Source: a virus. Taken from it: a DNA stretch of 20,199 bases. The stretch lies in the IMG/VR virus record IMGVR_UViG_3300034073_000123, positions 1 to 20,199 of that record. The stretch is one strand, 5' to 3'. The translations under genes were made by a program, and so were the position numbers. This document shows positions 1 through 13,605 of this stretch, piece by piece (within the stretch, counting starts at the first letter, position 1; each line of letters begins with the position of its first letter). The notes beneath the pieces were generated by a model. It did no database searches. It was given only the letters and a program-made list of their open reading frames with translations, and was not told where the DNA came from.

Positions 1-887
1 CATATTTTGATTCAATTGTGTGGGATGAAAAAGATAGGATAACCCCATTGGTTCAATCAATTAACTCTGATACTGGTGACTTTGATTATAGGCTCATTGC
101 AGTACAATCATGGCTCTTGGGTATCATAGAATCAATATACATTGACAATCCAAATATCTTACAATTGATTTTTGCAGGAAAGCAAAATACTGGTAAATCA
201 GTATTTTTTAAGCAATTACTACCAAAGCAACTATCAAGGTATTTTGGTTTGTCACAATTGGATAATGGTAAGGATGACCAGATACTTATGTGCGAAAAAT
301 TACTCATTCTTGATGATGAATATAGTGGAAAGGCTAAAGAGGATGCAAAACTAATAAAAAGATTACTTTCAGCACCTCACTTTGATATCAGAGAGCCGTA
401 CGGCAGACAAAACGTTAAAATGAAACGTATCGCATCCCTTTGTGCTACTACAAATGAAACTAAAATACTCAATGATATTACAGGAAACCGAAGAATACTT
501 GTATTAGAGGTTATTGGGAAATTTGATTACGAACTATATAACAGTATAGATAAAGAGCAGCTTTTTGGACAATTGTACGATATGCACAAAAGAGGATATG
601 AGGCACAATTAAATGATGCAATGATTGATTTAATGAAAGAATATACCCATGCAAGGAATTCTGAACCTTCAGTTGAAGAAGAATGCTTGGAAAAATTGTT
701 TCACAATCCAACAATACATGATGGATATAGCTATTTAACAAATACTGAAATAGTCTCAATTATAATGGATAAAATGAAATTGAGAGTCGGGTCAAAAAAA
801 CTTGGTATTGTATTAAAAGAACTTGGGTATGAGCAAAAAAAGAAGAATGGAGTTCAAAAATATCAGATTATGCAGAAATTAGGGTAG
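1..887 (+). CDS. VapE/D5-like phage primase-helicase ATPase, C-terminal part (5' partial)
   Basis: This is the C-terminal part of a P-loop replication ATPase of the virulence-associated E (VapE) type, expected to unwind DNA at phage or prophage replication. The frame is open to the left edge (YFDSI precedes the GTG at 18), so the true start lies outside the window. Counting from that GTG, a Walker A motif GKQNTGKS lies at about 54-61, Walker B LLILDDE at 95-101, a sensor-like CATTNE at 142-147 and the family's DITGNRR arginine motif at 153-159. The last 70 residues (NTEIVSIIMDKMKL then a KLGIVLKELGYEQKKK stretch) look like a small winged-helix domain, as found at the C-terminus of many Bacteroidetes VapE proteins (DUF3874-like). 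Any primase domain would be upstream and is not seen. The family call is from motifs; the exact subfamily is uncertain. Confidence 0.85.
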   Translation, partial: YFDSIVWDEKDRITPLVQSINSDTGDFDYRLIAVQSWLLGIIESIYIDNPNILQLIFAGKQNTGKSVFFKQLLPKQLSRYFGLSQLDNGKDDQILMCEKLLILDDEYSGKAKEDAKLIKRLLSAPHFDIREPYGRQNVKMKRIASLCATTNETKILNDITGNRRILVLEVIGKFDYELYNSIDKEQLFGQLYDMHKRGYEAQLNDAMIDLMKEYTHARNSEPSVEEECLEKLFHNPTIHDGYSYLTNTEIVSIIMDKMKLRVGSKKLGIVLKELGYEQKKKNGVQKYQIMQKLG

Positions 888-900
888 GTTGGGCAACTTC

Positions 901-929
901 GGGTAACTTCAAAAATGACGAAGTTACCC
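901..929. repeat. Perfect 10-bp inverted repeat after the helicase gene
   Basis: GGGTAACTTC at 901-910 is the exact reverse complement of GAAGTTACCC at 920-929, separated by a 9-base loop. It starts 13 bases after the helicase stop codon. No T-run follows on either strand, so it does not look like a classical intrinsic terminator. It carries two copies of the GGGTAAC unit facing each other and may be a protein-binding palindrome or an mRNA 3' end hairpin. Confidence 0.75.
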
Positions 930-964
930 TACTCAAACTCAATGTAGATAAGGCTTTCAGCGTA

Positions 965-1103
965 TTAGGGTAACTTGGGTAAGATAAATTCCTATAAAAG
1001 GTTATAAAATATTATATTATAGACAGTATATATAACGCGTGATTTTTATAGCACCTTATAGGAAGGCGTTTTGAAGTTGCCCAAGTTACCCAAGTTACCC
1101 TAA
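965..1103. repeat. Nested inverted repeats (18-bp outer arms, 9-bp inner arms)
   Basis: The outer arm TTAGGGTAACTTGGGTAA (965-982) is exactly mirrored at 1086-1103. Inside it, TTCCTATAA (989-997) is mirrored by TTATAGGAA (1056-1064). The enclosed core is strongly AT-rich, and a shorter TATAAAA/TTTTATA pair lies further in. The whole could extrude as a long imperfect cruciform or fold as an RNA stem with a long loop. The right arm overlaps the three 9-base iterons at 1076-1102. Confidence 0.8.
1076..1102. repeat. Three tandem 9-bp iterons (GTTRCCCWA type)
   Basis: Three adjacent 9-base units, GTTGCCCAA, GTTACCCAA and GTTACCCTA, start at 1076, 1085 and 1094. The same unit in reverse orientation recurs at 889-897 and 966-982. 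The regular 9-base phasing suggests binding of a small multimeric protein along one stretch of DNA. Confidence 0.7.
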
Positions 1104-1136
1104 AAAAATATTTCGCCATAAATATCTAAATCTGAT

Positions 1137-1144
1137 TAATTTTG
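1137..1144 (+). promoter_or_regulatory. Candidate Bacteroidota -7 promoter box (TAATTTTG)
   Basis: TAATTTTG fits the Bacteroidota -7 consensus TAnnTTTG. A partial -33 match, TTTC, is at 1111-1114, spaced 22 bases, slightly longer than usual. The ATG of the packaging operon's first gene is only 5 bases downstream, so transcription would begin at or very near the start codon. It would drive the small protein, terminases and head genes. Confidence 0.45.
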
Positions 1145-1149
1145 TTTAA

Positions 1150-1362
1150 ATGGCAAAGAAAGGTTTTTACATACGGCATAATACCAAAGACAATAGCATA
1201 ATGCTCAATGTCTTTGTGGACGATTTTAAGGCGTATTTAGACACTTTGCAAACAAATGAAGGTTGGGTTAAGCTGAGGATATTTGAGAGGCAAGAAGTGG
1301 ACTCTAAAGGCTTTACACACGATATGCAAGTAATTCAGATGAAAACTGGTAATGATGGGTAA
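1150..1362 (+). CDS. Small conserved-looking phage protein of unknown function (70 aa)
   Basis: I do not recognise this protein. It is 70 residues, soluble, with no membrane segment or signal peptide, and predicted mixed alpha/beta: a basic N-terminus (MAKKGFYIRHN), a central acidic VDDFKAYLDTL helix, and a beta-like C-terminal half. It is the first gene after the repeat-rich gap and overlaps the small terminase start by 8-11 bases, so it is translationally tied to the packaging genes. There is no Shine-Dalgarno sequence. The ATG sits 5 bases after a TAnnTTTG box. A DNA-packaging accessory role is possible from position only. Confidence 0.7.
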   Translation: MAKKGFYIRHNTKDNSIMLNVFVDDFKAYLDTLQTNEGWVKLRIFERQEVDSKGFTHDMQVIQMKTGNDG

Positions 1363-1744
1363 GAAAACGATAGTTGACGTAGATATCAAAAAAGAGGCTT
1401 TTATAAAAGCCTATCAGAATAACTTTGGCAATGTTACTCAATCCGTTGAGGCGGTTGGCGTAACACGTTCTGCATATTACAAGTGGGTAAAAGATGATCC
1501 TAAATTCTTGGCTAAACTCGAAGCGGTAGAACCGAAAGAGATTAAGAAGGATTTCATTGAAACGGCTCTTATGCGTAAAATTCGTGAAGGAGATACCGCT
1601 GCAATTATCTTTGCGAGTAAGACTCAGTTAAAGGATAGAGGGTATATAGAACGCCAGGAACTGACTGGTGCCGATGGCGATAAATTGGGAGCATTCACCG
1701 TAGAAATAATCAATGGGGCAACCGCTGAAAATACAAACAAGTAG
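1352..1744 (+). CDS. terS: Terminase small subunit (phBC6A51/helix-turn-helix type)
   Basis: This DNA-recognition subunit of the packaging motor should bind the phage packaging site and deliver it to the large subunit. Residues about 10-50 form a helix-turn-helix/homeodomain-like region (KAYQNNFGNVTQSVEAVGVT then RSAYYKWVKDDPKF), the pattern of phage small terminases that recall transposase HTH domains. The rest is helical (LMRKIREGDTAAIIFASKTQ, followed by KDRGYIER), matching the oligomerisation region of this family, with a short disordered tail. ATG at 1352 and ATG at 1355 are both possible starts. The gene overlaps its upstream neighbour by 8-11 bases and the large terminase by 32 bases, an arrangement that supports the assignment. 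Confidence 0.85.
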   Translation: MMGKKTIVDVDIKKEAFIKAYQNNFGNVTQSVEAVGVTRSAYYKWVKDDPKFLAKLEAVEPKEIKKDFIETALMRKIREGDTAAIIFASKTQLKDRGYIERQELTGADGDKLGAFTVEIINGATAENTNK

Positions 1745-2861
1745 AGTATTCGAAATCCTAAAGGATTCTAATTCCCGTATCACTGTGATGCAGGGCGGAT
1801 CTCGTAGCGGTAAGACTTACAACATAATCCTCTGGTTTATCATCAAACTCTTACAAGAACGTGGTAAAACCCTTTCCATTGTGAGGCAGTCACTTCCGAG
1901 TATCAAGGGTTCGGTATTACGTGATTTCATTGAGATTCTGCTGAAAATGGGGATTTACGATGAATCTAACCACAATAAGACCGAGCAGACATATAATCTG
2001 AATGGGAACCTGGTTGAGTTCGTTTCGGTTGACCAACCGCATAAAATACGGGGAAGAAAGAGAACCTACCTCTTCATGAACGAATGTACTGAAATGTCAT
2101 ACGAGGCATGGGTGCAGCTTACCATGAGAACTGAGGGTAAGATTGTTCTTGACTATAACCCATCAGATGAATATCATTGGGTGTTTGATAAGGTTATCCC
2201 AAGGGATGATGCTGATTTCTATATCACAACGTATAAAGACAATCCATTCCTGCCGAAGGAACTTGTAGCAGAAATTGAACGGCTAAAGGATGCAGACGAA
2301 AACTACTGGCTCGTTTATGGACTTGGTCAAAAGGGAAACCAGAACGATACAGTTTACACGCATTGGAGGCCAGTAACCAAGATGCCAGAAGGTGAGACTG
2401 TCTACGGCTTAGACTTTGGTTTCAATAATCCGAGTGCAATGGTTAAGGTGGTATTTCATGATGGTGGTATATATGCTGAAGAGATGCTATATGAAACCAA
2501 GCTGACAACAAATGACCTTGTAGAGCGGATAAAGAATCTTGGTATTTCAGCCTACGATGAGATATTCTGCGACTCCGCTGAGCCAAAGACGATTGAGGAA
2601 CTTGTTCGGAATGGTTTTAATGCCAAGCCTTCGAATAAGGATGTGTTTGTAGGTATCCAAAAGATAAAATCTTTGCCTTTCTTTGTGCTTGAAACATCAG
2701 CCAATCTTATCAAGGAACTTAAGAATTACAAATGGAAAACAGATAAGAATGGTAAACGATTGGATGAGCCTGTAAAGTTCATGGATCATGCCATTGACGG
2801 ACTTAGATATAGTGTATACACGAAATTAAACGCACCTCAGTTGACCTGGGGTATAATATAA
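1713..2861 (+). CDS. terL: Terminase large subunit (Terminase_3, PBSX-like)
   Basis: This is the packaging motor ATPase and headful/cos nuclease that drives DNA into the prohead through the portal. The ATPase domain shows Walker A GGSRSGKT (28-35), Walker B YLFMNE (119-124, with E124 the likely catalytic glutamate) and the coupling motif LDYNPSDE (146-153). The C-terminal RNase H-like nuclease has the expected acidic residues D234 (GLDFGFNN), D287 (FCDSAEP) and D358/D362 (MDHAIDGLRYS). At 382 aa it is slightly short but complete in motifs. The ATG at 1713 overlaps the small subunit by 32 bases. The portal gene follows after 4 bases. Confidence 0.96.
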   Translation: MGQPLKIQTSRVFEILKDSNSRITVMQGGSRSGKTYNIILWFIIKLLQERGKTLSIVRQSLPSIKGSVLRDFIEILLKMGIYDESNHNKTEQTYNLNGNLVEFVSVDQPHKIRGRKRTYLFMNECTEMSYEAWVQLTMRTEGKIVLDYNPSDEYHWVFDKVIPRDDADFYITTYKDNPFLPKELVAEIERLKDADENYWLVYGLGQKGNQNDTVYTHWRPVTKMPEGETVYGLDFGFNNPSAMVKVVFHDGGIYAEEMLYETKLTTNDLVERIKNLGISAYDEIFCDSAEPKTIEELVRNGFNAKPSNKDVFVGIQKIKSLPFFVLETSANLIKELKNYKWKTDKNGKRLDEPVKFMDHAIDGLRYSVYTKLNAPQLTWGII

Positions 2862-2865
2862 CAAC

Positions 2866-4242
2866 ATGGGTATTTTAGATATATTCAAAAAGAAAGGACT
2901 AAATCCGAATATCGGAACGCAAAGGGAAGTACAAGCCGTTAATGGTGTTGTACTTCAGCCGTACTATCAACAGGCTTATGTTGATGATGGTTATCTGGGG
3001 AATTCTGATGTTTACGCAATTGTGACATTCCTTGCGAGGAAAGCGGGTTCAATTCCGTGGTATGTGTACAAGATGAAGCCAGGGGAGAAGGCGAAGACCT
3101 CATTAGAGCGTTACAAGCAACTATCCAAAGGTCTGCACAACAAAGGTGCGTTTGAACGTGCCTTGATGGAGCGGAAAAACGCCTATGAGGAGAATATGGT
3201 AACGGGAACTCCCTTGGCTAAACTTCTTGAGCGACCGAACCCTCAACAGGCTCAAGACCAGTTCTTTCAGAACTTATTCGGGTATAGAATTCTCAGCGGG
3301 GAGGGTAATATATACGGCAACGATGGAAACATAGAGAATGGCAAGTTCCTTGAACTAAACGTACTGCCTACTCAATTACTTGAGATTTATCCTGATCCTA
3401 ATGACCTTTACGGATTGATTGGATATAAGTTGATGGTGGCTCAAGGTATTAACATTCCAAAGTCTAACGTTTGTCATTGGAAGTCTTGGAATCCTGATTT
3501 CAACGATGTGACTCGTTCTCACTTGAGAGGTGTTTCTCCACTTCGCTCAGCGTGGAAACTACTTAGGATGTCAAATAACGCAGCCGATGCGAGTGCTAAG
3601 ATGACACAGAATGGGGGTGCAAAGGGTGCATTAGTCCCAGAGGTGGTAAATAACAATGTGCCTCAAATGACACCTGAACAGGCATCAATTATCCAACGTG
3701 CCATCAATGAGCGTATAAATGGAACGGATAATAAAGGCTCTATTGGCGTCATGCAGTATCCGTACAACTACCTAAACTTCGGGTTGTCATCCGTTGACAT
3801 GGAACTTGTCAAGACTCTGCAAATGACACTACATCAATGGTGTAGAGTATTTGGTATGCCTATTGTGTTGTTCGATACTGACACTTCAAGCTATAACAAC
3901 TACACCAATGGTATGCGTGATCTGATTACGAACACCATTGCACCACTTTGTGCGGAGTTGAGAGATGAACTCAACGCTTGGCTTGTTCCAAGGTTTGGGG
4001 AGAACGTATATATCGATTACGACATTTCAGCACTACCAGAACTACAAGCAGACATGGAGAAGATGGTGGCTCAGCTCAAACAAGCCGATTGGCTGACATT
4101 TGATGAAAAACGTACTGCGATGGGTTATGAAGAAAAGGGTGGTGCTTATGCATCATCTTATGTTGGTAGTGGCATGATGCCACTTGAAATGGCAATGATG
4201 GATTTAACGGTACCTGATGACAATAATGGAAATGGTGTATGA
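2866..4242 (+). CDS. Portal protein (HK97 family)
   Basis: The portal forms the dodecameric ring at one head vertex through which DNA enters and leaves and to which the terminase and connectors dock. The 458-aa length and layout match HK97-type portals: an N-terminal basic start (MGILDIFKKKG), then a conserved VYAIVTFLARKAGSIPWYVY block at about 50-70, the LLERPNPQQAQDQFFQNLFG region near 122-143, a YGNDGNIENGKFLELNVLP segment, and WGRV-like HQWCRVFGMPIVLF near 326-339 followed by NTIAPLCAELRDELN, typical of the stem and wing. The C-terminus is acidic and Asn/Gly-rich (VPDDNNGNGV). No frame disruption is seen. It lies between terminase and minor head protein, as expected. Confidence 0.95.
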   Translation: MGILDIFKKKGLNPNIGTQREVQAVNGVVLQPYYQQAYVDDGYLGNSDVYAIVTFLARKAGSIPWYVYKMKPGEKAKTSLERYKQLSKGLHNKGAFERALMERKNAYEENMVTGTPLAKLLERPNPQQAQDQFFQNLFGYRILSGEGNIYGNDGNIENGKFLELNVLPTQLLEIYPDPNDLYGLIGYKLMVAQGINIPKSNVCHWKSWNPDFNDVTRSHLRGVSPLRSAWKLLRMSNNAADASAKMTQNGGAKGALVPEVVNNNVPQMTPEQASIIQRAINERINGTDNKGSIGVMQYPYNYLNFGLSSVDMELVKTLQMTLHQWCRVFGMPIVLFDTDTSSYNNYTNGMRDLITNTIAPLCAELRDELNAWLVPRFGENVYIDYDISALPELQADMEKMVAQLKQADWLTFDEKRTAMGYEEKGGAYASSYVGSGMMPLEMAMMDLTVPDDNNGNGV

Positions 4243-4396
4243 GAAATACCCAAAGACACAAGCAGAACGTAACTGCTTGATAGAGAAGAGGATGATGGAT
4301 GCCTTGAGGGCAGCGTATAAAACAAGATTAGAAAATGAACGCAAAGCAGCGGAAGGAATACTGGATGAAAACGGAGAGACTCAGAGCAGGCCTTGA
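4232..4396 (+). CDS. Possible small protein between portal and MuF genes (54 aa)
   Basis: A 54-codon frame starts with ATG at 4232, overlapping the portal 3' end by 11 bases, and stops with TGA at 4394-4396, 62 bases inside the minor head protein gene. The product starts MVYEKYPKTQAERNCLIEKR and continues as a charged, probably helical peptide rich in Lys, Arg and Glu, ending in a hydrophilic tail. It fills the otherwise empty 92-base gap between portal and minor head genes in a region where every other gap is only a few bases. I do not recognise a family. The large overlap with the next gene argues for caution. It may be a genuine small head-module gene or a chance frame. Confidence 0.5.
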   Translation: MVYEKYPKTQAERNCLIEKRMMDALRAAYKTRLENERKAAEGILDENGETQSRP

Positions 4397-5210
4397 CAAA
4401 AAGTACTTTGAGCAGATTCAACAATCTGTTTGGAATACTTTCAAGCGTTTTGCTCGTGACATCGAAGTCATCGGCATTGATGCTGCACGTTCACGCCTTG
4501 GATTGGATTTGTGGGATAAGGAGATGCTCAAGATATTTGAAGCCATGTACAAAGAATCCGTTTTGCTATTTGGCAATAGTGTTTATCGTGCATTGAGGAT
4601 TGAATCACAAAAGGCAGAAACCTTTGGATTTAATCGTGAGTGGACTGATGCGGTGTTGGAGTTCTTGCTGAAGCAGGGATTCACTCTGGTTGCTGATATA
4701 ACTTACACGACTAAGAAGAAACTAAACGACATCGTGACTAAAGGCATTGAAGAAGGATTAGGCGTGGATGAGATTGTGAAACTGATTTTATCTGATGAGA
4801 ATTTAGGCTATTCAGATATGAGGGCAAGAAGGATTGTGAGAACTGAGGTTATGCGGTCATCGAATATTGGAGCAATGAAAGGAGCGGAGGCACATGGATT
4901 TTATGTAGATAAAGAATGGATTTCAGCAAGGGATAAGCGAACACGAAGAATCCCTGAGGATGAATTTGACCATGTGCAGATGGATGGTAAAGTTGTACCG
5001 TTTGAAGAGCCGTTTACCTCAACGGGGAAGAAAGGTGAGCCTGTTGTAATTATGCAGCCTGGTCAGTTGAGTGATGAATCTAATGGAATATTTGCACCCC
5101 CAGGATTTACTATCAATTGCCGTTGCACTGTTGGGTTTATTCCAAAGAGAGATGCCAATGGTAGGCTTTTAAGGAAACCAAAATTAAATGAACCTCAAAT
5201 AATATCATAA
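4335..5210 (+). CDS. Minor head protein, SPP1 gp7 / Mu gpF-like (Phage_Mu_F)
   Basis: This is a minor capsid component associated with the portal and often ejected or needed for DNA delivery. The C-terminal half carries the Phage_Mu_F domain: RRIVRTEVMRSSNIGAMKGA at about 167-186, WISARDKRTR with DHVQMDGKVV, then the signature GFTINCRCTVGFIP near 254-267, with paired cysteines (C260, C262) preceding a charged tail. The N-terminal half (1-160) is helical. An in-frame TAG at 4329-4331 lies just before the ATG, so 4335 is the earliest ATG. The stop codon shares one base with the start of the protease gene (TAATG). The 291-aa length is normal for the family. Confidence 0.88.
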   Translation: MNAKQRKEYWMKTERLRAGLDKKYFEQIQQSVWNTFKRFARDIEVIGIDAARSRLGLDLWDKEMLKIFEAMYKESVLLFGNSVYRALRIESQKAETFGFNREWTDAVLEFLLKQGFTLVADITYTTKKKLNDIVTKGIEEGLGVDEIVKLILSDENLGYSDMRARRIVRTEVMRSSNIGAMKGAEAHGFYVDKEWISARDKRTRRIPEDEFDHVQMDGKVVPFEEPFTSTGKKGEPVVIMQPGQLSDESNGIFAPPGFTINCRCTVGFIPKRDANGRLLRKPKLNEPQIIS

Positions 5211-7592: not shown

Positions 7593-8081
7593 ATGCCATA
7601 TTCATACGATTACTTTAAGCAAGAGTTTTACTATCACATGAAATCTACGTTCCCATTGGGTATGAATATACTTGATGTTGGTGTAGGGTCTGGGCAGTAT
7701 GGTAGAAATCTAAATGATAAGTTTAAGATAAACGCTCTTGAGATATTCGAGCCGTATGTTGAGCAATTTGGGTTAAAGTACGTTTATGATAACGTAATTA
7801 TAGGGGATATTAGGCAGTTTGATACAACTGGCTATGATTATGTCATAATGGGTGATATCTTAGAGCATTTGACATATTATGAAGCAAAAGAGGTATTGAA
7901 TGGCATAAAGTGTAAGTATATGTTTGCAGTACCTTACAAAATGAAACAAGGTGAGGTAAATGGCAACATACATGAAACGCATCATCAGGATGATTTGACT
8001 CATGAATTGGTACTTAATAGGTATCAAGGTGTAAGATGTTTATTTCACAATTTGGACTATGGCTATTATGTAAACTATTAA
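7593..8081 (+). CDS. SAM-dependent methyltransferase, class I
   Basis: A small (162 aa) Rossmann-fold methyltransferase. Motif I is ILDVGVGSGQYG (26-37), followed by an acidic residue ending strand 2 (E50 in NALEIF), a GDIRQF segment (71-76) and the YDYVIMGDILEHL motif (81-93) that resembles the UbiE/small-molecule methyltransferase type. It lacks the NPPY/DPPY motif of N6-adenine or N4-cytosine DNA methylases and the PC motif of C5 enzymes, so base methylation of DNA is unlikely. A sugar, small molecule or protein is more likely as acceptor. The gene sits between the capsid terminator and a glycosyltransferase gene and is 3 bases from the latter. The ATG lies immediately at the end of the terminator T-tract. 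Confidence 0.85.
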   Translation: MPYSYDYFKQEFYYHMKSTFPLGMNILDVGVGSGQYGRNLNDKFKINALEIFEPYVEQFGLKYVYDNVIIGDIRQFDTTGYDYVIMGDILEHLTYYEAKEVLNGIKCKYMFAVPYKMKQGEVNGNIHETHHQDDLTHELVLNRYQGVRCLFHNLDYGYYVNY

Positions 8082-8084
8082 ACT

Positions 8085-9059
8085 ATGAACGTACTTGCAT
8101 CAATTCATTTATATCCTCCAGAACATAATTGCGGTGCAGAATATATGTTGCATGGCATATTAAAGCACTTACAATCTGAAGGGCATCACATAAAAGTACT
8201 CCTCCATCAAGCCAATCACTACAAAATAACCAATAACTACGTTTTCGATGGTATTGATGTCTTCCCACCGAATGCAAATGTCATCGAAGGCTTAATGAGA
8301 TGGTCAGATGTGGTATTCACACATTTGGATTACACAAGGTGGACAATTCACACGGCTAAACTATATAAAAAGCCAGTATTTCACCTTATACATAATTCTC
8401 ATCCTTACCCTGAGATAATTGATGCGGAGAATAAACAACATATCATTTATAATTCTTTTTGGCTAAAAGACTTACTGAATTATAATTTTAGTAGTTTTGT
8501 ATTGACCCCACCTTGTGACTATCGTTATTACGATACTAATACTGACACTTCCAAGAATACTTACATTACACTAATTAACTTAAACGAAAACAAAGGGGGT
8601 AAGGTCTTTGCAGATATTGCCAGAGCAATGCCACATAAACATTTTCTTGGTGTTCTTGGTTCATATGATGAGCAAGTAACCGAAAATCTGCCTAATGTGG
8701 TGTATGTGAAGAATAATCCGAATATACTTGATACTTACAAACAGACTCGAATTTTACTAATGCCTTCGGAATATGAAAGTTGGGGAAGAACGGCAACAGA
8801 GGCAATGTCAAGTGGTATCCCCGTGATTTGCACTGAGGCAGATGGGTTAAAGGAAAACTGCGGTAAAGCAGGTATTTACATTAAAAACAGAACCGATGTT
8901 AAGGAATGGGCCAGAAGAATTACTGAACTTGATGAAGAAAAAGCCTATAGTTCAGCATCAAGAAAAGCAAAAGCAAGAAGCAGAGAACACGATCCAAGAG
9001 AAGCACTTAATCAATTCTCAACTTGGTTCAAAGAAAAAGTTAACGAATGGTATACATAA
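8085..9059 (+). CDS. Glycosyltransferase, GT4-like (GT-B fold)
   Basis: A 324-aa GT-B enzyme that transfers a sugar from a nucleotide-sugar donor. The N-terminal acceptor half starts with MNVLASIHLYPPEHNCGAEY, including the glycine-containing loop of GT4 enzymes (GAEYMLHGILKHL). The C-terminal donor half shows NENKGGKVFADIARAMP, then MPSEYESWGRTATEAMSSG with the GT4 EX7E pair at E231 and E239. The C-terminal tail is basic and helical. The acceptor is unknown. Beside a methyltransferase and within the structural operon, modification of a virion protein glycan or of host surface sugar is plausible. The reading frame overlaps the connector gene by 13 bases. The codon and base use of this pair looks more AT-rich than the capsid gene, in keeping with an acquired cassette. 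Confidence 0.87.
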   Translation: MNVLASIHLYPPEHNCGAEYMLHGILKHLQSEGHHIKVLLHQANHYKITNNYVFDGIDVFPPNANVIEGLMRWSDVVFTHLDYTRWTIHTAKLYKKPVFHLIHNSHPYPEIIDAENKQHIIYNSFWLKDLLNYNFSSFVLTPPCDYRYYDTNTDTSKNTYITLINLNENKGGKVFADIARAMPHKHFLGVLGSYDEQVTENLPNVVYVKNNPNILDTYKQTRILLMPSEYESWGRTATEAMSSGIPVICTEADGLKENCGKAGIYIKNRTDVKEWARRITELDEEKAYSSASRKAKARSREHDPREALNQFSTWFKEKVNEWYT

Positions 9060-10499: not shown

Positions 10500-10943
10500 A
10501 TGGGACAAGTTTTAGGTAGTTTACAAAGCGTTGAAATCGACATCACCAATGTCGGAACAACTGGTTTTAGAAGTCTTGTTTGTCTGCGTACATCATCCAT
10601 CAATACTACAATGGATGCAACGGTTGAGCAGACTAATTGCGGAGTTCTTACATCTCCTTCAGAGCCTCAAATGACTGTTGATTTTGATGCTATTTGTGAA
10701 GTAGCACCAACTGCAACTCAAATTTCATACGAAGACTTGTTGACTTGTGCTAAAAATAAAACCATCGTAATGGTTAGGGTACAAAATCCAACAGTTACTG
10801 GTTCATCTGAAGGAACTGCCTATTATCATAGGTTTAGCGGTTACATAACCGACCTTACTTGGAATCAAGCCACAAGCGAATTCATTAACTTCTCAGGTAC
10901 AATTCAATCAACTGGTGCTTTGGATGTTGATCCTGCTGCATAA
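10500..10943 (+). CDS. Major tail tube protein (TP901-1-like)
   Basis: Predicted to form the hexameric rings of the siphovirus tail tube. The sequence is beta-rich, with the small-residue start GQVLGSLQSVEIDITNVGTT, an internal FRSLVCLRTSSINTTMDATV segment and the C-terminal FSGYITDLTWNQATSEFINF followed by SGTIQSTGAL. The strand-turn pattern ending in a Gly/Ser-rich tail suits tail tube proteins. It lies directly before the tail assembly chaperone and tape measure genes, as always in siphovirus tail modules. It is short (147 aa). A second tube-like protein (16015-16620) exists, so the roles could be shared. Confidence 0.78.
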   Translation: MGQVLGSLQSVEIDITNVGTTGFRSLVCLRTSSINTTMDATVEQTNCGVLTSPSEPQMTVDFDAICEVAPTATQISYEDLLTCAKNKTIVMVRVQNPTVTGSSEGTAYYHRFSGYITDLTWNQATSEFINFSGTIQSTGALDVDPAA

Positions 10944-10952
10944 ATCTAAAAT

Positions 10953-11336
10953 ATGAACTACTGCACTATAACTATGAATGGCACTAAGACTGGTATTAAA
11001 TTCGGCATGGCATCATTTAGGTACTTAGGTGATGGTAAACTTGTCGAAGGCAAGACTCACAAAGGTGATGAACTCAATGAAATTGGAATAGCACATATAC
11101 TTTATTCTGGGTATTGGAATAACTGCATCGTAAAGGATGCAGAGCCTGAGTTGACTTTCTCCGATTTCGTGGACTATATTGAATCCAATTTGCGTAATGA
11201 AGAGGCAATGATTGAGATAAGGAACGCATTGGAGATATGGACAAAGAATGAGTTCATCAAGCAAGTGAATGAGCCAGAAGCAAAAAAAAAGACTTCACCT
11301 TCGAAGAGATTGAAGCCTACGCCTTCGGGGAAATGA
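10953..11336 (+). CDS. Tail assembly chaperone, first part (gpG-like; frame 0 product)
   Basis: This is the upstream tail assembly chaperone reading frame, ending in the zero frame at 11336 (127 aa). Residues 1-105 look folded (LGDGKLVEGKTHKGDELNEI, IEIRNALEIWTKNEFIKQVN), while the last ~15 residues after the A-run (KTSPSKRLKPTPSGK) look like unfolded filler. This is typical of a frame that is normally left by -1 frameshifting. It lies between tail tube and tape measure. It should coat the tape measure protein and bring tube subunits to it. Confidence 0.8.
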   Translation: MNYCTITMNGTKTGIKFGMASFRYLGDGKLVEGKTHKGDELNEIGIAHILYSGYWNNCIVKDAEPELTFSDFVDYIESNLRNEEAMIEIRNALEIWTKNEFIKQVNEPEAKKKTSPSKRLKPTPSGK

Positions 11337-11584
11337 TGCTGCTGCCTAATGAGTTTTACAAGATGTCACCACGGCATTTTTCACTAATGCTCAAAGGACA
11401 TCAGGAAAAGAAGGTTGATGATTACAGACAAACGAGATTATTAATGTTTACGATGGTTCGTTTGCATGGTGATCCGAAATCTTCACCTAAGTCACCAGAA
11501 GCACTTTGGGAGTTGCCAGGTGATGAGGTAAAAGGAATGACCGATGAAGACTATCGGGAAATATTTAAACGTTTGGTAAAATGA
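10953..11584 (+). CDS. Frameshift product: tail assembly chaperone gpG-gpT type fusion (210 aa)
   Basis: A -1 slip on A AAA AAG at 11285-11291 gives 113 codons of frame 0 followed by 97 codons of the -1 frame, total 210 aa. The -1 frame is closed by TGA at 11270-11272 and has no ATG before 11333, yet it encodes convincing protein directly after the slip: DFTFEEIEAYAFGEMMLLPN continuing into EFYKMSPRHFSLMLKGHQEK. The stretch from GAC at 11291 to the ATG at 11333 is hard to explain unless ribosomes arrive by frameshift. This mirrors the lambda G/GT arrangement; the fused protein bridges tube subunits and tape measure. See the stem-loop at 11299-11330. Confidence 0.85.
11273..11584 (+). CDS. Tail assembly chaperone, second (-1 frame) segment
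   Basis: This reading frame is open from 11273 and ends at TGA 11582-11584. Its first ATG at 11333 would give only an 83-aa product, but the open stretch upstream reads as coding. Features: EMMLLPNEFYKMSPRHFSLM then LKGHQEKKVDDYRQTRLLMF, with a TMVRLHGDP tail, matching the P-x-EFY-x-MSP pattern of phage tail assembly chaperone C-terminal segments. Its stop codon overlaps the tape measure ATG (ATGA). It is normally made as the C-terminal part of the frameshift fusion. Independent initiation at 11333 is less likely but not excluded. Confidence 0.75.
   Translation, partial: ARSKKKDFTFEEIEAYAFGEMMLLPNEFYKMSPRHFSLMLKGHQEKKVDDYRQTRLLMFTMVRLHGDPKSSPKSPEALWELPGDEVKGMTDEDYREIFKRLVK
11285..11291 (+). 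promoter_or_regulatory. -1 ribosomal frameshift slippery site (A AAA AAG)
   Basis: Within a run of nine A bases (11282-11290) the zero-frame codons are AAA (11283), AAA (11286) and AAG (11289). The heptamer A AAA AAG at 11285-11291 is the canonical bacterial -1 site. A tRNA-Lys slip moves reading to the frame starting GAC at 11291. Confidence 0.85.
11299..11330 (+). other. Candidate frameshift-stimulating stem-loop
   Basis: CTTCGAAG (11299-11306) pairs with CTTCGGGG (11323-11330), 8 pairs including two G-U, with a 16-base loop. It begins 7 bases after the slippery heptamer, within the 5-9 base spacing typical of stimulatory structures. The weak outer pairs mean the effect may be modest. Confidence 0.5.
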
Positions 11585-13605
11585 ATGAAGACTTTATATT
11601 TCGGCTTGGTGCGGATGTCTCATCGTTTACCAAGTCTATTGCCGAGGTTGAGAAGGAACTTGACTCAGCACGTAAAGCCATTAAAGGTGCTTTAGGTGAT
11701 GACCTTGTAAAAGGTAATCAGTATGTTGAGCAACTCGAACAATCGTTAAAGGATTTAAAAGCAACAGGCGTACAAGTACCTGGAGCAGCAAAGGCAGCAA
11801 CAGAGATAAAAAACATTAGTCCTGCTGCACAAAAAGCACAAAACACCCTCACAGGATTATCAGGAGTAGTTCGTGACTTACCATTCGGGTTTATTGCGAT
11901 ACAAAATAACTTACCAATACTTGCCGACCAATTTACCGCACTATCAAAAGAATCTGGGGGAGTTGGTGGTGCTTTAAAGGGATTAGGTGGTGCGTTAATA
12001 GGTCCTGCAGGTGTAGCTTTTGCATTCGGAGCAGTTACATCAATAGTTACAGGACTTATACAAGAATATGGTTCTTTAAGCGAGGCTTTAAATGTTATAC
12101 TTGGTATTACTAAACCACTAACTGAAGCACAAAAAGCATATAATAAAGCATCATTTGAAACGGCAGGGAATGTAGCTGCGGAAGAGTCAAAGGTTAATAT
12201 TCTTACTAAAACACTACTTGACAATAAAAAGCCACAAGCGGATAGACTTGCAGCTTATGGAGAACTAAAAAAGGTTGCTCCTGATGTTGTTAGTGGTATA
12301 AAAGATGAGAATGCACTAACAAATGAGAGTAACCTTCTTATTGCAGCTAATAGTAAATTAAGGGCAGAGTCAGTAAGATTAAAAGTTCAAGAAGCAGGAA
12401 TTACGGCTGCTTTGACTACTAATGAAACCAAATTAGCTGAATTAAGGGCAAAACTTGCAACGGCTACTGATGAATATGTAAAATCTGCTGATGCACTTAA
12501 TAAAAGCGACAAACAAGCAATAATAACTGGTTTAGGTTCAGTTTCAGCACAACAACTTGCACTTGATGCGTTTAATAATAACGCAAAAGCGGTAAAAGAG
12601 TTAAATGGTCAAATTGCAGTACTGACGGGCGAGAACCAAAAATATTTAAACCAACTTGACCCAGTCGTAATTGGACTTGCTAATATAAATGAGCAGACAA
12701 GAAAACAAGTTGAAGGTTTAAAAGAATCAAATAAAGAAACGGATAAAGCTACCGCAGAATCTAAAAAAAGAACAAAGCAATTAGAGAGAGAAGGTGTTGC
12801 AATCGCAAAAAAAAGCAAAGCGGATGAAAAAGCTCTTGAAAAATTAAGAGAACAAAGAACAATAAGAGTAACGGCTCAACTTGAAGTTGATTTTCAACGT
12901 AGAGGTAATATTAATACTTCTGAGATACTTAAAAAACGTATTAAAGAAACTCAAAAGGAAGTAGAAAGAACGGCAGGTGCAATTCAAGTACCTTTAGTTT
13001 TCCCTGGTGTTAATCCTTTGGCTTTATTGCAAAATATAAAACTTGCACAAGCTGAATTTAAGAAACTTAAAGAGGCTGCTAATTTACAAGCAACTACACA
13101 ACTTATTTCTGATACTTTCTTTAGTCCAATAAATGAGTTATTTAATAACCTTATCTCTGGTGCTAAAAACTCAATGCAAGAATTTGGTAAAGCCATTACA
13201 AGTGCATTAAAACAATTAGTTGCGAAAATCATTGCAACGGGTATTATTCAGATCATAGGTGTGTTAATATCAGGTGGTTTTGGTGCAGCTAAAGGTGGTG
13301 CAGCTAATGGATTTAAAGAAGTATTAAAGGGCATTGGCTCTGCATTCGGTTTTAAATTCGAAGCCAACACATTTAAAAACGCTTTTGATTTCGCAGGTAT
13401 AGCTAATGGATTGCAAAATGCAATCAATAGTGTAAATACTTCACTTGCCTTCCAAGGTTCATTAGCAGGGGTTTCTAATCCTAATTTCGGAGGCGTAACT
13501 GGTGGTGGAATGGCAATGAGTGGAGCGGTTAACGTAGTTTTGAGAGGACAAGACTTAGTAGGATCATTGAACAGAACAAACGCACAAATTAATCGAGTTG
13601 GCTAA
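11581..13605 (+). CDS. Tape measure protein
   Basis: This long protein sets tail length and helps DNA enter the host. It is helix-rich, with coiled-coil-prone Lys/Glu/Gln runs in the N-terminal 60 residues (FTKSIAEVEKELDSARKAIK) and around 390-450. Hydrophobic segments lie near 97-150 (FGFIAIQNNLPILADQF then GGALKGLGGALIGPAGVAFA) and near 545-565 (ATGIIQIIGVLISGGFGAAK), as in tape measures that span the host membrane. At 674 aa it predicts a tail of roughly 100 nm using the usual 0.15 nm per residue. No lytic transglycosylase or peptidase domain is recognisable. It follows the chaperone pair by ATGA overlap, which is the canonical position. Confidence 0.92.
   Translation: MNEDFIFRLGADVSSFTKSIAEVEKELDSARKAIKGALGDDLVKGNQYVEQLEQSLKDLKATGVQVPGAAKAATEIKNISPAAQKAQNTLTGLSGVVRDLPFGFIAIQNNLPILADQFTALSKESGGVGGALKGLGGALIGPAGVAFAFGAVTSIVTGLIQEYGSLSEALNVILGITKPLTEAQKAYNKASFETAGNVAAEESKVNILTKTLLDNKKPQADRLAAYGELKKVAPDVVSGIKDENALTNESNLLIAANSKLRAESVRLKVQEAGITAALTTNETKLAELRAKLATATDEYVKSADALNKSDKQAIITGLGSVSAQQLALDAFNNNAKAVKELNGQIAVLTGENQKYLNQLDPVVIGLANINEQTRKQVEGLKESNKETDKATAESKKRTKQLEREGVAIAKKSKADEKALEKLREQRTIRVTAQLEVDFQRRGNINTSEILKKRIKETQKEVERTAGAIQVPLVFPGVNPLALLQNIKLAQAEFKKLKEAANLQATTQLISDTFFSPINELFNNLISGAKNSMQEFGKAITSALKQLVAKIIATGIIQIIGVLISGGFGAAKGGAANGFKEVLKGIGSAFGFKFEANTFKNAFDFAGIANGLQNAINSVNTSLAFQGSLAGVSNPNFGGVTGGGMAMSGAVNVVLRGQDLVGSLNRTNAQINRVG

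Follow-up and report, generated by a model that had tools for sequence, protein, structure and literature searches.

How does a tailed phage read two short open reading frames (ORFs) as one tail assembly chaperone, and is it the ribosome or the RNA polymerase that changes the frame between them? The question is raised by a stretch of viral DNA of 20,199 nucleotides (here called the window), which carries a structural module of the tailed-phage type, with genes for the small and large terminase subunits, portal, head morphogenesis, protease, and major capsid; 3' of these head genes lie connector genes, the major tail protein gene, two chaperone ORFs (G and T), and an ORF of 674 amino acids. G, T, the slip run, and the two neighboring genes of the pair are on the plus strand. 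The upstream neighbor of the pair, at 10500 to 10943, matches phrog_1407, major tail protein (E value, 2e-7), and the downstream neighbor, at 11581 to 13605, matches phrog_30292, which has no listed function; the latter ORF stands where Cellulophaga and Bacteroides phages have their annotated tape measure genes and is the putative tape measure gene. Two short ORFs are therefore found where a G/GT-type chaperone is expected, between the genes for the major tail protein and the putative tape measure protein. Because the named hosts of phages with the same T family are Cellulophaga, Flavobacterium, and Bacteroides and the best matches of the window's terminase are Parabacteroides and Bacteroides phages, the host of this phage probably belongs to the Bacteroidota. 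One contig of this Bacteroidota-type phage family (L135, positions 1 to 4679) has been assigned to a metagenome-assembled genome that bears the label Sphingomonadaceae, and a binning error is the probable cause. Within the window, a small methyltransferase-like gene (7593 to 8081) and a family 4 glycosyltransferase gene (8085 to 9059) lie between the major capsid and head-tail adaptor genes, an odd place for genes of either kind.

Gene order and family matches, each of the latter weak alone, together allow the ORF pair to be assigned securely as a G/T tail assembly chaperone. For T, PF09550 (Phage_TAC_6) was matched by all 11 aligned relatives, the window itself scoring 21.9 bits, just under the cutoff of 23.4. 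The window's T matches phrog_16333 (E value, 9e-10), a membership shared by all T proteins tested from the window, 11b, F4, and Cellulophaga lineages, and T of Flavobacterium phage 11b matches phrog_441, tail assembly chaperone (E value, 3e-4); PHROG 16333, for which no function is listed, appears to be a family of tail chaperone T domains. For G, PF12363 (Phage_TAC_12) was weakly matched by 7 of 23 relatives of the 113-amino-acid part (best E value, 9e-4). A sequence profile search of solved structures returned no relevant match, the best hit in a fold comparison of G was an unrelated protein (Z, 2.4), and comparison with viral models gave weak matches only, several of them named tail assembly chaperone.

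The G gene occupies the zero frame from 10953 to 11336 and specifies 113 amino acids up to the slip site, or 127 if translation ends at the TGA at 11334 to 11336; the 113-residue part is conserved across an alignment of 23 G sequences, and the linker around the slip run varies in both length and sequence. The T frame (-1) is closed by a TGA at 11270 to 11272, is then open from 11273 to 11584, and has its first ATG at 11333; the T domain proper, 97 amino acids plus a stop at 11291 to 11584, would be read after a slip only. An earlier note on this DNA had described this blocked -1 frame without an ATG before 11333, had regarded the zero-frame tail as filler, and had expected a product of 210 amino acids. 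The ORF coordinates bear out the first point; the tail past the slip (11292 to 11336), 14 codons plus TGA in the window, is 1, 6, 12, or 14 codons long among relatives and differs freely in sequence; and 113 and 97 residues make 210. Conservation, synteny, and matches to chaperone families all give strong support to the broader proposal of the note, a programmed -1 fusion of the chaperone genes, but the ribosomal mechanism that it invoked is not the sole candidate and perhaps not the main one, and the selected element is a run of nine A residues (A9) rather than a heptamer only. What the sequences show is conservation of the run, the frames, and the gene order, together with the avoidance of A9 elsewhere, and we infer the fused protein, its function, and the machine that slips; that G and T are joined through a -1 frame change at 11282 to 11291 appears near certain.

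At the junction, the codons GCA AAA AAA AAG (11280 to 11291), in frame with the G ORF, contain the A9 run at 11282 to 11290, followed by G at 11291. Two in-phase heptamers are thereby formed, A_AAA_AAA at 11282 to 11288 and A_AAA_AAG at 11285 to 11291, the second of which had already been recognized in the earlier note and is a part of the longer run. Scans of viral contigs provided relatives with T identities of 58 to 99%, of which 70 were distinct after removal of duplicates. In 69 of these 70, the run is exactly A9G, T lies in the -1 frame, and the gene order is kept; the heptamer, the conservation of which had been put forward as a check in relatives that keep both genes, is retained in the same 69. 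L105 (positions 2992 to 3000) is the sole close relative with A8 rather than A9; the difference is due either to sequencing error or to natural variation, and in the latter case G and T would stand in a changed frame relation. Immediately 5' of the three lysine codons stands GCA, CCA, ACA, or TCA, the third base of which is synonymous and lies outside A_AAA_AAG; this base, 11282 in the window, is A in 69 of 69 sequences, compared with at most 84% uniformity in 28 other fourfold-degenerate columns in G and T. A lone A9 in the window is not rare by codon shuffling, with 0.5 runs of exactly nine and about 1.2 runs of nine or longer expected, and the evidence for A9 is its conservation, not its presence in the window. 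Judged by this conservation, the slip element comprises all nine A residues of A9G and extends beyond the heptamer A AAA AAG.

Runs of A8 to A11 occupy the corresponding position in four further lineages of the T family phrog_16333, where they occur in each of the three codon phases and are associated with frame changes in either direction. Among 88 distinct loci of the lineage of Flavobacterium phage 11b and Cellulophaga phage phi10:1, contigs included, the run is A9 in 70, A10 in 16, A11 in 1, and A8 in 1, so that 87 of 88 have A9, A10, or A11, and it begins at codon position 1 or 3. All 10 loci of the Bacteroides phage F4 lineage have A9, beginning at codon position 2 or 3, and F4 itself is -1. 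Cellulophaga phage phi18:1 has A9, phi39:1 and phi10:1 have A8, and a 59% relative of phi39:1 (L190) is without A9 (GGGGAAAAAG, -1). Runs of at least nine A residues are thus found at 69 of 70, 87 of 88, and 10 of 10 loci in three lineages, with starts at codon positions 1, 2, and 3, and therefore it is the length of the run that is kept, as expected of transcriptional slippage, and not the phase of one heptamer.

The direction of the frame change offers a second line of evidence. A mixed direction in one gene has been used as a criterion for transcriptional realignment and a uniform direction as one for ribosomal frameshifting (PMC3711429). T lies in the -1 frame in the window, 11b, and F4 lineages and in the +1/-2 frame in Cellulophaga phages phi18:1, phi39:1, and phi10:1; the direction is uniformly -1 inside each close family. 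Because both patterns occur, mixed between lineages and uniform within close families, and because an ATG precedes the run in two of the three +1 cases, we take the mixed direction as suggestive only of transcriptional realignment. In those two phages, phi18:1 (L059, positions 2486 to 2514) and phi10:1 (L192, positions 1468 to 1490), the acidic linker of G, GATGATGAG, gives an ATG ATG that shortly precedes the A8/A9 run in the +1 frame of T, and T may there have a start separate from G.

The other genes of these phages that we surveyed lack A runs of such length. In 109 nonredundant other ORFs of at least 150 amino acids each, taken from loci of these phages and totalling 132 kb, runs of at least nine A residues numbered 0, where drawing synonymous codons at random predicts 9.7 (Poisson P, 6e-5), and A8 was observed 15 times compared with 23 expected. 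In-phase heptamers are not avoided in the same ORFs (A_AAA_AAA, 54 observed and 64 expected; A_AAA_AAG, 24 observed and 26 expected). Since heptamers are tolerated in long genes and A9 occurs only at this junction, the avoidance fits a hazard that depends on run length, arising from polymerase or replication slippage, better than it fits a ribosomal heptamer hazard; the process reflected may be replication slippage and not transcription.

A downstream stimulatory structure is common in ribosomal -1 frameshifting, although not universal. The earlier note had proposed a hairpin at 11299 to 11330 and had looked to its conservation in relatives. A complementarity of 8 bp does exist there, but the segment folds no better than shuffled sequences (z, +0.22; about +0.8 against codon-preserving shuffles), and it shows no covariation, no pair being changed on both sides in 15 relatives. 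A longer fold 3' of the slip in the window was not better than shuffles, none of the 22 sequences of the window's clade folds significantly downstream of the slip (mean z, -0.42; none below -2), the 11b lineage likewise has no downstream structure (mean z, +0.2), and no upstream nascent-RNA stem was detected (mean z, -0.07). A Shine-Dalgarno-like stimulator was sought and amounts to a 4-base match in just 9 of 69 sequences, consistent with the behavior of Flavobacterium johnsoniae, in which Shine-Dalgarno pairing is rare and frameshifting at the prfB site is poor (PMC12421855).

Downstream folds with z below -2 were found in 34 of the 70 sequences, all from sister clades. Directly 3' of A9G in one sister clade (L103, positions 877 to 951; L090, positions 2561 to 2635; L116; L043; and relatives), a stem of 13 bp begins 4 nucleotides past the run, with z values down to -4.3; it has no counterpart in the window's clade. 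Across 22 distinct sequences this stem shows 13 cells with two-sided change compared with 4.1 in shuffles, and its pairing is 80.8% compared with at most 53.5% when slid. We infer that a downstream stem can act on ribosomes only, since it is untranscribed while the polymerase is on the run, and the covarying stem therefore makes ribosomal frameshifting likely in the relatives that bear it.

The most serious alternative to polymerase slippage is programmed -1 frameshifting by the ribosome at the tandem pair of heptamers, A_AAA_AAA and A_AAA_AAG, in the manner of lambda G/GT, with the extra A residues raising efficiency and some lineages adding a stimulatory stem. We regard this as a substantial possibility, though not the probable explanation. 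It would draw on slippery heptamers that are in phase for a -1 shift in every member of the close family, on the strong covarying stem of the sister clade, on the uniform direction inside families, and on the known precedent in tailed phages, which is ribosomal (PMC5009743). The same stem, for which a polymerase has no need, the same uniformity of direction, and the lack of A9 in L190 are points against polymerase slippage. However, ribosomal frameshifting leaves unexplained why A is invariable, whichever of the three codon phases the run begins in, even at run positions that the in-phase heptamer does not cover, why heptamers occur freely elsewhere yet runs of nine or more A residues are absent, and why the shift is +1/-2 on the A8/A9 runs of Cellulophaga phages, and the window's clade has neither stem nor Shine-Dalgarno-like stimulator. 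The synonymous base at 11282, the retention of the run in three phases, the mixed direction, and the avoidance of A9 together favor run-length-dependent slippage, the simplest form of which would be polymerase slippage of the kind known from Thermus dnaX, over slippage on a heptamer only.

It is very unlikely that no fusion takes place and that T is instead made as a protein of its own, through coupled translation from the ATG at 11333. This codon does overlap the TGA of G (ATGA), but the T-frame motif E-I-E...A-F-G, which lies immediately after the slip at 11306 to 11329, 5' of that ATG, is invariant in relatives, and separate translation is improbable because a start at T's own ATG would lose it. 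The first T-frame ATG is 63 to 198 nucleotides into the open frame in many relatives, and in the close family, where T is -1 in 69 of 70, it falls within or after the conserved motif, leaving T in another frame with no complete start of its own; coupling, moreover, gives no reason for the keeping of A9G. An assembly or sequencing error that split one continuous gene can be practically dismissed: long homopolymers are indeed error prone and L105 reads A8, but the same nine A residues recur in 69 distinct sequences from many independent contigs and also in the isolate genomes of Flavobacterium phage 11b, Cellulophaga phage phi18:1, and Bacteroides phage F4.

We lean, on the strength of these comparisons, toward RNA polymerase slippage on A9 as the main route to the GT protein. 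Under this scheme, the polymerase would slip at 11282 to 11290 and add one A to some mRNAs, and ordinary translation of these A10 transcripts would pass from G into T; G alone would form most of the product and the 210-amino-acid GT fusion a minority. The ribosome may contribute by slipping -1 at the two in-phase heptamers, a route that is probably important in the stem-bearing sister clade, so that one run may serve both kinds of slippage. Analogy with lambda suggests that G coats the tape measure protein and T recruits the major tail protein. Bacterial RNA polymerase is known to slip on runs of nine A residues (PMC5009743).

Comparison with established systems clarifies what is shared and what differs. 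The slip motif of lambda G/GT is GGGAAAG. Lambda makes about 30 G molecules per GT, with G on the tape measure and T recruiting the tail tube protein, and it resembles our locus in the order major tail protein, G, T, tape measure, in the -1 position of T, and in the fusion of two short ORFs (PMC5009743); in contrast, the slip element here is A9G, an extended A run which suggests that the polymerase may slip. In dnaX of Thermus thermophilus, a run of nine A/T likewise serves as a transcriptional slip element that yields two products per gene (PMC5009743), but the gene is another one, and tau is a single ORF shortened by slippage, whereas here slippage would give access to a second ORF. In tssM1 of Citrobacter rodentium, poly(A) precedes a premature stop, insertion of an extra A allows the longer protein to be made, and the ratio of the two forms matters; that run is A11 in a secretion gene, with an efficiency of about 20%, and the slippage was shown by RT-PCR mass spectrometry (PMC4256274). 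The chaperone of Lactobacillus phage LfeSau, annotated as a joined CDS, shares the G/T pair, the -1 shift, and the neighbors, but its slip region, GCA AAA AAC, has no run of nine A residues and is a short heptamer of the canonical type. To our knowledge, G/GT chaperone frameshifting has almost always been taken as ribosomal. Our search of the open (PMC) literature found no paper tying transcriptional slippage to tail chaperones. The G/GT fusion is already well known, and the lineage-wide A9 and a possible shift to the polymerase were not encountered in the literature searched.

Whether the tailed phages of Bacteroidota in general make GT through RNA polymerase slippage on a conserved A9, instead of or besides ribosomal frameshifting, is a proposition that we hold to be evenly balanced. 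If it is true, the phages of one host phylum have moved recoding from the ribosome to the polymerase, or use both, and a recoding event that is among the most widespread in phages has there changed its mechanism. PHROG 16333 gains a suggested function, and an A9 run between the genes for the major tail protein and the tape measure protein provides a simple mark that would let annotators join pairs of chaperone ORFs that at present are annotated as hypothetical proteins.
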